36,036 bases of DNA from Gloeomargarita sp. SKYG116. GTDB lineage: Bacteria; Cyanobacteriota; Cyanobacteriia; Gloeomargaritales; Gloeomargaritaceae. The stretch is from positions 1 through 36,036 of the forward strand of contig JANWVM010000023.1 of the NCBI GenBank assembly GCA_025056115.1, given 5' to 3'. Both the position numbers and the translations under genes were made by a program. Position 1 is the first letter of the stretch, and each line of letters starts with the position of its first letter. Of this stretch, positions 3,933-26,643 are shown one piece after another. The notes beneath the pieces were generated by a model that had not been told where the DNA came from, did no database searches, and saw nothing but the letters and a program-made list of their open reading frames with translations.

Positions 3933-4030
3933 GCCACAGCTCCCCCTTTTCTCCCCATTATCACCAGCCCCACCGTCGCCGATGGCCTAAACTGAGAAAT
4001 GTGAAGTTATGTGACAGGTCGTACACAGTC

Positions 4031-25306: not shown

Positions 25307-25312
25307 TATAGT
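25307..25312 (+). promoter_or_regulatory. Candidate -10 element for rlmB
   Basis: TATAGT, five of six to consensus, lies about 30 bases before the ATG at 25341. It overlaps the alternative GTG start at 25311, which argues that translation begins at 25341. A matching -35 at standard spacing is not clear. Confidence 0.3.
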
Positions 25313-25340
25313 GGTATTTCTGGCGTCAATCAATCAACCA

Positions 25341-26186
25341 ATGCCCACGCAACCCCTGCGACCGAAACGACCCGTAACCCCGCGCGCCCCCAGGAAATCC
25401 ACACCGCCGCCGGAATTGCCGGATTACATCTACGGGCGGCACACGGTCTTATCAGCCCTGGAAGCCCAGCAGCCCCTGAACCGGGTGTGGATCATTCCCC
25501 AACTGCGCTATCACCACCGGTTTCAACCCCTGCTTACCCAAGCCCAAGCCCGCGGCACGGTGATTGACCAGGTGGAACCCAGCCGGTTAGACCAGCTCAC
25601 CCACGGCGCGAACCATCAAGGGGTTGTGGCCCAGGTGAGTCCCTACCGCTACTGGGACTTGGACCAGTTTCTCGCCCACATTCGCGCTCATCCCCAGCCG
25701 CTGGTGGTCTTGGCCGAGGGCATCATGGACCCCCAGAACCTAGGCGCTATCATCCGCACCACGGAAGCCATGGGCGGTCAGGGCGTGATCATTCCCCAGC
25801 GGCGGTGTGTGGGGGTCACCAGCACAGTCGCCAAGGTGGCTGCCGGCGCCCTCAGCCATTTACCAGTGGTGCGCGTGGTCAACCTGACACGGGCCTTAGA
25901 AGAACTTAAAGCCGCTGGTTTCTGGAGCTATGCCCTGGTGCCGGAAGCCCCTACCCCCCTCTACAAGGTCGAATTTGCCAATGCCGTCGCCCTGGTGGTG
26001 GGTTCCGAAGGTAGCGGTCTAACCCTGAACATCCGTCGCCACTGCGATGTTTCCCTGTGCATTCCCCTGAGCGGCCACACCCCTAGCCTCAACGCCGCTA
26101 TCGCCTGCGGTATGGCCCTCTACGAAGTCCGCCGCCAGCACCAACCCGCCCGTCTCCTCACCCCAATGCCTGATATATCCAACTGA
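25341..26186 (+). CDS. rlmB: TrmH/RlmB-family 23S rRNA ribose methyltransferase
   Basis: A 281-residue SPOUT-class methyltransferase from the ATG at 25341. The first 25 residues are Pro- and Arg-rich and probably disordered. An L30e-like RNA-binding domain follows (YIYGRHTVLSALEAQQPLNR to about residue 105), then the knotted catalytic domain with motif 1 (MDPQNLGAIIRTTEAMG), motif 2 (LVVGSEGSGL) and motif 3 (CIPLSGHTPSLNAAIACGMAL). RlmB methylates the 2'-O of G2251 in E. coli 23S rRNA. The related YacO/TrmH group of Gram-positive bacteria and plastids shares the domains, so the exact nucleotide is inferred. All catalytic residues expected from the family (Asn, Arg, Glu, Ser/Asn) are seen. Confidence 0.9.
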   Translation: MPTQPLRPKRPVTPRAPRKSTPPPELPDYIYGRHTVLSALEAQQPLNRVWIIPQLRYHHRFQPLLTQAQARGTVIDQVEPSRLDQLTHGANHQGVVAQVSPYRYWDLDQFLAHIRAHPQPLVVLAEGIMDPQNLGAIIRTTEAMGGQGVIIPQRRCVGVTSTVAKVAAGALSHLPVVRVVNLTRALEELKAAGFWSYALVPEAPTPLYKVEFANAVALVVGSEGSGLTLNIRRHCDVSLCIPLSGHTPSLNAAIACGMALYEVRRQHQPARLLTPMPDISN

Positions 26187-26222
26187 CATACGGCCTTAAT
26201 CCGGTCGTTGCTGGTGCAGTTC

Positions 26223-26275
26223 GCTACAAAAATTTAAGAAGAGTTACAAAAATTTAGTATCACTTTAGGTAGAAT
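26223..26275 (+). promoter_or_regulatory. Tandem HLR1-like elements and -10 ahead of the DUF1816 gene
   Basis: Two copies of TACAAAAATTTA (26225-26236 and 26245-26256) lie exactly 20 bases apart. Each extends to a form close to the HLR1 element bound by the response regulator RpaB, (G/T)TTACA(T/A)(T/A)-N2-repeat. The second reads GTTACAAA (8 of 8), AA, then TTTAGTAT (6 of 8); the first reads GCTACAAA (7 of 8), AA, then TTTAAGAA (6 of 8). TAGAAT at 26270-26275 is a candidate -10. The match is by eye and regulation is inferred. Confidence 0.4.
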
Positions 26276-26337
26276 CTAGGTAAAACACTGTTGGGGTTGG
26301 GCAACTTGCGTACTGGTGTCGCGGGTGGGATAAGACT

Positions 26338-26643
26338 ATGAGATTCAAAGAGTCGTTTCGGGAACTATTTATCTCGGTATTGGAGCGGGTCGGTTTGGCC
26401 TGGTGGGTAGAAATGCGGACGGAGCGTCCCCCTTGCCTGTACTACTTTGGGCCGTTTGCCACCCGTGAGGAAGCTGAGGCCGCGCAACCGGGTTATTTAG
26501 AAGACTTGCTGACGGAAAAGGCGGAGGGGATCACCTGGGTGATTCGGCAGTGTCGTCCTTCCGCATTGACCATCGAGAATCCAGACGGGATTGCGGCGGC
26601 CAGCGCCAACGGTGCTCATCAATCGCAACTGCCGCTGGGGTAA
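26338..26643 (+). CDS. DUF1816 protein
   Basis: A 101-residue protein beginning MRFKESFRELFISVLERVGL. The cyanobacterial DUF1816 signature is clear: GLAWWVEMRTERPPCLYYFGPFATREEAEAAQPGYLEDL, in segments around residues 19-57, then a basic strand (ITWVIRQCRP) near 65-75. Members are small and often occur in multiple copies; some domain collections relate the fold to phycobilisome linker-type or CpcD-like modules, but function is not established. The C-terminal 20 residues (AAASANGAHQSQLPLG) are not part of the domain and overlap the convergent glycosyltransferase by 25 bases. The 151-base upstream region holds tandem HLR1-like sites, suggesting light- or redox-responsive expression by inference. 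Confidence 0.82.
   Translation: MRFKESFRELFISVLERVGLAWWVEMRTERPPCLYYFGPFATREEAEAAQPGYLEDLLTEKAEGITWVIRQCRPSALTIENPDGIAAASANGAHQSQLPLG

Follow-up and report, generated by a model that had tools for sequence, protein, structure and literature searches.

In the Gloeomargarita lineage, the gene of a DUF1816 protein is preceded by a row of four direct half-sites set in 10-bp steps, which has about an even chance of being a binding array for an RpaB-type regulator of the OmpR family that controls the gene, most likely by activation in low light. That RpaB is the binding protein, where transcription starts and which way control runs are all what we infer from the DNA. The window, meaning the whole stretch of 36,036 nt that was analysed, carries the following features at this locus:

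25311–26186, plus strand: upstream neighbour, a SpoU-family rRNA 2'-O-methyltransferase gene (rlmB-like; Pfam SpoU_methylase 132.3 bits, SpoU_sub_bind 84.4 bits)
26223–26230, plus strand: half-site 1, GCTACAAA (GTTACAAA in 4/7 genus genomes)
26225–26236, plus strand: 12-mer TACAAAAATTTA, copy 1
26233–26240, plus strand: half-site 2, TTTAAGAA, off consensus (TTTAAG in 7/7)
26243–26250, plus strand: half-site 3, GTTACAAA, a perfect octamer (ATTACAAA in 4/7)
26245–26256, plus strand: 12-mer TACAAAAATTTA, copy 2
26253–26260, plus strand: half-site 4, TTTAGTAT, off consensus (TTAG in 7/7)
26270–26275, plus strand: -10 element TAGAAT (TARAAT in 7/7, with the array ending 9 nt upstream in 7/7)
about 26282, plus strand: putative transcription start, placed about 7 nt after the -10 element
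26293–26304, plus strand: conserved 5'-UTR block GGGGTTGGGCAA (10 of 12 columns invariant in seven genomes)
26338–26643, plus strand: DUF1816 gene, 101 aa (PF08846, 99 bits, cut-off 27)

The array and its conservation

The original prediction described two copies of a repeat, 20 bases apart, ahead of TAGAAT. Their coordinates are confirmed: TACAAAAATTTA occurs twice with a start-to-start distance of 20 and a gap of 13 nt from the second copy to TAGAAT, and the window holds no third copy. The second copy does lie with a perfect first octamer, GTTACAAA, where the first copy has GCTACAAA, and the gene downstream is the DUF1816 gene that had been named, its PF08846 score standing far above the cut-off. 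The 12-mer pair is part of a 38-bp row (26223–26260) that reads, in 10-bp steps, GCTACAAA-AA-TTTAAGAA-GA-GTTACAAA-AA-TTTAGTAT; the repeat is real, but four half-sites describe it better than two sites do. Given a start near 26282, the computed positions of the two proposed sites, -59 to -42 and -39 to -22, agree with those expected, while the best pair in this genome is the middle one (26233–26250, -49 to -32), which the prediction had passed over.

A chance repeat in an AT-rich intergenic region is one explanation that the shuffles address directly. None of 100 whole-window shuffles produced a TACAAAAATTTA pair, and a non-overlapping 12-mer repeat arose in 4/5000 shuffles of the intergenic region (26187–26337) and in 0/5000 of positions 26220–26290. 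The half-sites were scored with a matrix built from the psaA, hli and sigma-70 gene promoters of the genus, the DUF1816 promoter being left out of training (six genomes per gene, 48 half-sites, equal weight per gene); RpaB binding at all three training promoters was assumed from gene identity, and psaD, with no clear site by eye, was kept out. Comparisons at psaA, hli, psaD and the sigma gene cover six genus genomes, G006 being absent. The array scores 25.2 bits and ranks first among the 71,998 positions of the window's two strands; the runners-up overlap it (19.5 bits at 26213), and the best non-overlapping position reaches 14.9 bits. With this first rank under a matrix not trained on it, the array fits the half-site profile of the lineage's photosynthesis-type promoters.

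The array score was reached by none of 5000 local dinucleotide shuffles, whether of the 71-nt element or of the intergenic region, which speaks against chance. Taken singly, the pairs score 16.3 bits (middle, 26233–26250), 14.1 bits (26243–26260) and 11.1 bits (26223–26240), and in favour of chance the best of them was matched by 116/5000 element shuffles (2.3%) and 57/5000 intergenic shuffles (1.1%). What lies beyond chance is the four-site row taken together, along with its conservation; a lone pair is not rare.

Conservation was assessed in seven genomes of the genus, namely the window genome and six others. All seven keep the row, its 10-bp spacing and the 9 nt between it and the -10 element, and also, with small differences, both TACAAAA-N-TTTA-type copies 20 bp apart. 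Pairwise identity across the array is 0.896, with 31 of 38 columns invariant, far above the 35 nt of upstream flank (0.323, no invariant column) and the third codon positions of the gene (0.583), and among steps of 7–13 the score is maximal at 10 in every genome. A sequence-only model of the element finds one strong match per genus genome (E 4e-22 to 1.3e-18), its remaining matches there having E 0.04 or worse, and, at E up to 10, detects no second copy in the window genome. Conservation of the repeats upstream of the genus orthologues, named beforehand as a refutation test, is thus seen in 7/7 and already contradicts chance, which we regard as extremely improbable. Further downstream, the 5'-UTR block GGGGTTGGGCAA stands out with its 10 invariant columns of 12 against 16/51 for the whole UTR in the seven genomes.

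Elsewhere in the window, the minus-strand pair GTCACATAACTTCACATT (3998–4015) is the top HLR1-type pair, with 20.6 bits and two mismatches. It outscores all three pairs of the array, to which it is unrelated, differs by one letter from the sigma-gene site of its own genome, and lies 15 nt before the ATG (4031, plus strand) of a methyltransferase gene.

RpaB as candidate regulator and the direction of control

A review gives the HLR1 consensus as two KTTACAWW octamers with 2 bp between them (KTTACAWWN2KTTACAWW; PMC13421787). Direct half-sites at the 10-bp step are present in 7/7 genomes, and no octamer pair in the seven matches the consensus, each showing 2–4 mismatches; the array is on this ground HLR1-like and not proven HLR1. 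In the window, the three overlapping pairs have 3, 2 and 2 mismatches. In half-sites 2 and 4 the TTACA core differs at its C and its A, and the differences are themselves conserved. The HLR1-like contexts originally proposed hold in that an HLR1-type element does precede the DUF1816 gene, but the two sites then named carry 3 and 2 mismatches. For the TTAAG variant there is a predicted precedent: a table of predicted Synechocystis HLR1 motifs (PMC6331805) lists TTAAGATATATTACAA at slr0320, which is close to the middle pair. In the RpaB/RpaA ChIP paper (PMC5785211), a word search did not find HLR1 as a term.

HLR1 matches with up to three mismatches number 160+133 in the window genome versus 144+150 for a reversed-pattern control; being no higher than the control, these counts are no evidence by themselves. 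The strongest matches are six exact ones and 12 with one mismatch; some of these stand upstream of psaA, of an hli-type gene and of a sigma-70 gene. In 6/6 genus genomes the hli and sigma sites are found again at the aligned place, and psaA also has a row of four half-sites, GTTAGATAAATTTACATAAATTTATATATCTTTACGAT in the window genome, found in 6/6 genomes by best score alone. The psaA row (L044 1501–1538; G000:C186:2606–2643, plus strand) has 10-bp steps and lies on the strand opposite to psaA.

Several other HLR1-type sites were seen. Three half-sites in 10-bp steps (L235 1493–1520; G000:C182:3292–3319, plus strand) are followed, 20 nt on, by the ATG of an EamA transporter gene. In two genomes from another family, near-identical rows of TTACA and TTAGAAT half-sites, TGTTACAGAAATTTAGAATCGTTACAATGAGTTAGAATC at L127 1501–1539 (plus strand) and its counterpart at L124 1501–1539 (minus strand), precede a 200-aa ORF that looks DoxX-like by eye. 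A one-mismatch HLR1 lies at L037 1501–1518 (minus strand), where an 89-aa ORF with no Pfam match at E 0.001 begins 46 nt from the site start.

The suggestion of RpaB as a possible regulator is borne out to the extent that the window genome encodes it (NF045944, 397 bits, cut-off 330). From this gene and the HLR1 matches at psaA, hli and the sigma gene, we infer that RpaB is the first candidate, and the array most likely binds this light and redox regulator. A different OmpR-family regulator could bind the same array, which would then not be a light-redox element. The genome has six Trans_reg_C proteins; of the four scanned, three fall below the curated cut-off for RpaB, their best models being RpaB, PhoB and NblR with scores below the respective cut-offs, and two of the five non-RpaB proteins are named by no scan. 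Half-sites 2 and 4 depart from the HLR1 consensus, and OmpR-family regulators commonly have direct half-sites spaced by roughly one helical turn. Against this stand the TACAAA in half-sites 1 and 3 and the rank of the array as the window's best match to the psaA/hli/sigma matrix, and SphR boxes look different, being of the CTTAACCT type. Another family member is unlikely as the regulator. As for NtcA, whose site is quoted as GTA-N8-TAC in PMC6331805, three exact sites occur in the window and none in the intergenic region; the nearest (26110–26123) is inside the methyltransferase gene.

The promoter itself bears on whether a regulator is needed. With one mismatch allowed, a -35-like hexamer 15–19 bp from the -10 element was found in 0/7 genus genomes, and TTACAA within half-site 3 lies 20 bp from it in 7/7. 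The missing hexamer favours a promoter that depends on its regulator. It is weak evidence for an activator, since most Synechocystis promoters are said to have no discernible -35 (PMC9241938). A promoter lacking a -35 at 15–19 bp would also suit A-tracts in helical phase, or an AT-rich element of UP type, acting through DNA bending or through contact with the alpha subunit of the polymerase and involving no specific regulator, and the window does have A5T3 tracts two helical turns apart. However, in 7/7 the TAC of each copy keeps its C, and TTTAAG and TTTAG keep their G, and the upstream A-tract is interrupted by G or C in 4/7, at a spacer position of the pair, which makes this reading very unlikely.

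If RpaB, or at least an OmpR-family response regulator, is the binding protein, the four direct half-sites 10 bp apart would give room for two dimers side by side, occupying about -59 to -22 in place of a -35 element. Once bound, the regulator would bring RNA polymerase to the -10 element 9 bp away or hold it in place there, and expression of the DUF1816 gene would track RpaB occupancy and phosphorylation, and hence light and the photosynthetic redox state. The most likely outcome would be activation in low light, with phosphorylated RpaB bound.

The same array and regulator might instead repress, with the downstream half-sites blocking RNA polymerase and release in high light as for hli genes. 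According to PMC13421787, RpaB activates from sites at about -66 to -45 and represses from those at -38 to +23. At its putative position the array overlaps both zones. The downstream pair (-39 to -22) is almost entirely inside the repression zone, and the genus hli pair lies 5 nt before its own likely -10 element, both of which favour repression. Yet the upstream pair overlaps the activation zone, a promoter with no -35-like hexamer at 15–19 bp in 7/7 may need help, and the 9-nt gap between array and -10 element is fixed in 7/7, as expected for contact with the polymerase. On balance, repression appears rather unlikely, and activation by bound, phosphorylated RpaB is favoured with modest confidence.

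DUF1816 promoters outside the genus

DUF1816 is present in 39/39 genomes searched, with 50 matches, and 48 upstream regions were examined, leaving out G020's weakest match and a stop-containing one in G023; L106, which has a stop in frame, was excluded from the protein alignment. An AlphaFold model of the DUF1816 protein has a mean pLDDT of 80.1, with residues 21–70 averaging above 90, and folds as a helix, two long strands, a helix and two strands. The model has no match among PDB structures at E 0.001 or better, and the sequence has no PDB match up to E 1 and no NCBIfam match. In the literature searched, supplements lying outside the search, DUF1816 and PF08846 are unmentioned.

Beyond the genus, the element model found no copy of the array beside DUF1816 in 32 genomes at E up to 1, a search in which a weak copy could be missed, because in many genomes 129 first-look candidates, only part of the total, were scored. 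Seven weaker matches of the element model elsewhere (E 4e-4 to 1) were inspected, and none is beside DUF1816. What precedes DUF1816 in many outside genomes is a sigma-70-like promoter, defined as TTGAAA or one of four similar hexamers, a spacer of 16–18 bp and TATAAH. Such a -35/-10 promoter occurs in 15/32 outside genomes (first copies), in 15/41 upstream regions (all copies) and in 9/28 named loci (L092 being the same record as G034), compared with means of 0.04 (genomes) and 0.08 (named loci) in 100 shuffles; in the genus, the combination of a listed -35 hexamer, 16–18 bp and TATAAH is found in 0/7.

The matrix scores gave an unplanned result: for 18/41 outside loci, at most 10 of the 200 shuffles of the locus reach its score. 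The three top scores come from opposite-strand sites that cover the -10 element, in G034 (23.9 bits), G013 (20.6 bits) and G031 (19.2 bits), and that of G034 exceeds some genus members (23.3 bits; lowest 17.9). A usable -10 element was present in 29 of the 69 upstream regions from outside the genus, of which 27 remained after duplicate removal; the other 40 lacked one and were not alignable. A minus-strand half-site of at least 4 bits, 10–11 bp downstream of the half-site supplied by the -10 element itself, is present in 17/27 aligned promoters (step 10 in some, 11 in others), a number reached in 0/1000 shuffles of the flanks (mean 2.0, maximum 8); these promoters are related by descent and do not count as independent, and the score result had been seen before the test was drawn up. 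A half-site 10–11 bp upstream is found in 6/27 (shuffles: mean 1.3, maximum 5, 0/1000). Unrelated control promoters have the half-site in 0/4, a sample too small for a useful comparison. At the Elainella locus (L097) the sequence is TTTACATT-ctg-GTTATACT-gc-GTTACACC.

The conserved stretch TTGAAAAAAGAATTGCAACGGAGTATAAC that precedes DUF1816 in other families is more than the coding end of rlmB, as it lies past the rlmB stop in several genomes, and it was analysed as a promoter. With the stop position set by a motif rule, the -10 element ends past it in 9/17 (L010, L011, L014, L026, L083, L084, L094, L096 and L097), so that coding is no explanation in those nine; in the remaining eight the stretch overlaps the rlmB end in seven, and rlmB was not found in one.

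The half-site just past the -10 element in outside promoters counts in favour of the repression reading given above. The downstream minus-strand half-site lies in a repressor position, and DUF1816 may be a widespread RpaB target whose site has moved in the Gloeomargarita lineage. A fuller, tentative and rather doubtful version holds that DUF1816 has long belonged to the RpaB light-redox regulon: in many lineages, RpaB would repress from the other strand over the -10 element and start of a sigma-70 promoter, and in the Gloeomargarita lineage the -35 element would have been lost and the half-sites rebuilt as a row of four at -59 to -22. If true, the rebuilding could switch the gene from high-light release to low-light activation. 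The locus lets promoter rewiring be tested at a single conserved gene, in a lineage regarded as sister to plastids, and the array is a regulatory lead for a family with no known function found in all 39 genomes searched.

Comparison with known systems

The array resembles HLR1-type RpaB sites in its TTACA-type direct octamers, its 10-bp steps and its place near a cyanobacterial promoter, in the good match of half-sites 1 and 3, and in the presence of RpaB in the genome. It differs in that half-sites 2 and 4 are off consensus, in that four half-sites stand in a row reaching the -35 position, and in being a putative site. Within the genus, the psaA row likewise has four half-sites in 10-bp steps (6/6 genomes, by best score), but it lies far upstream of its TATAAT on the opposite strand and is nearer to the consensus in most of the six genomes.

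In PhoB-type class II promoters, direct repeats replace the -35 element and end about 10 bp before the -10 element. These promoters differ from that of DUF1816 in half-site sequence and in regulator. The Synechocystis atpT promoter is active independently of its -35 region, its activity requiring an imperfect HLR1-like stretch between -45 and -60, and it is shifted by RpaB in vitro (PMC9241938). The DUF1816 promoter shares with it the imperfect HLR1-like region upstream, and activity that does not depend on a -35 region is what the atpT promoter offers as a parallel; the atpT region covers -45 to -60 only, whereas the DUF1816 array extends over four half-sites to about -22.
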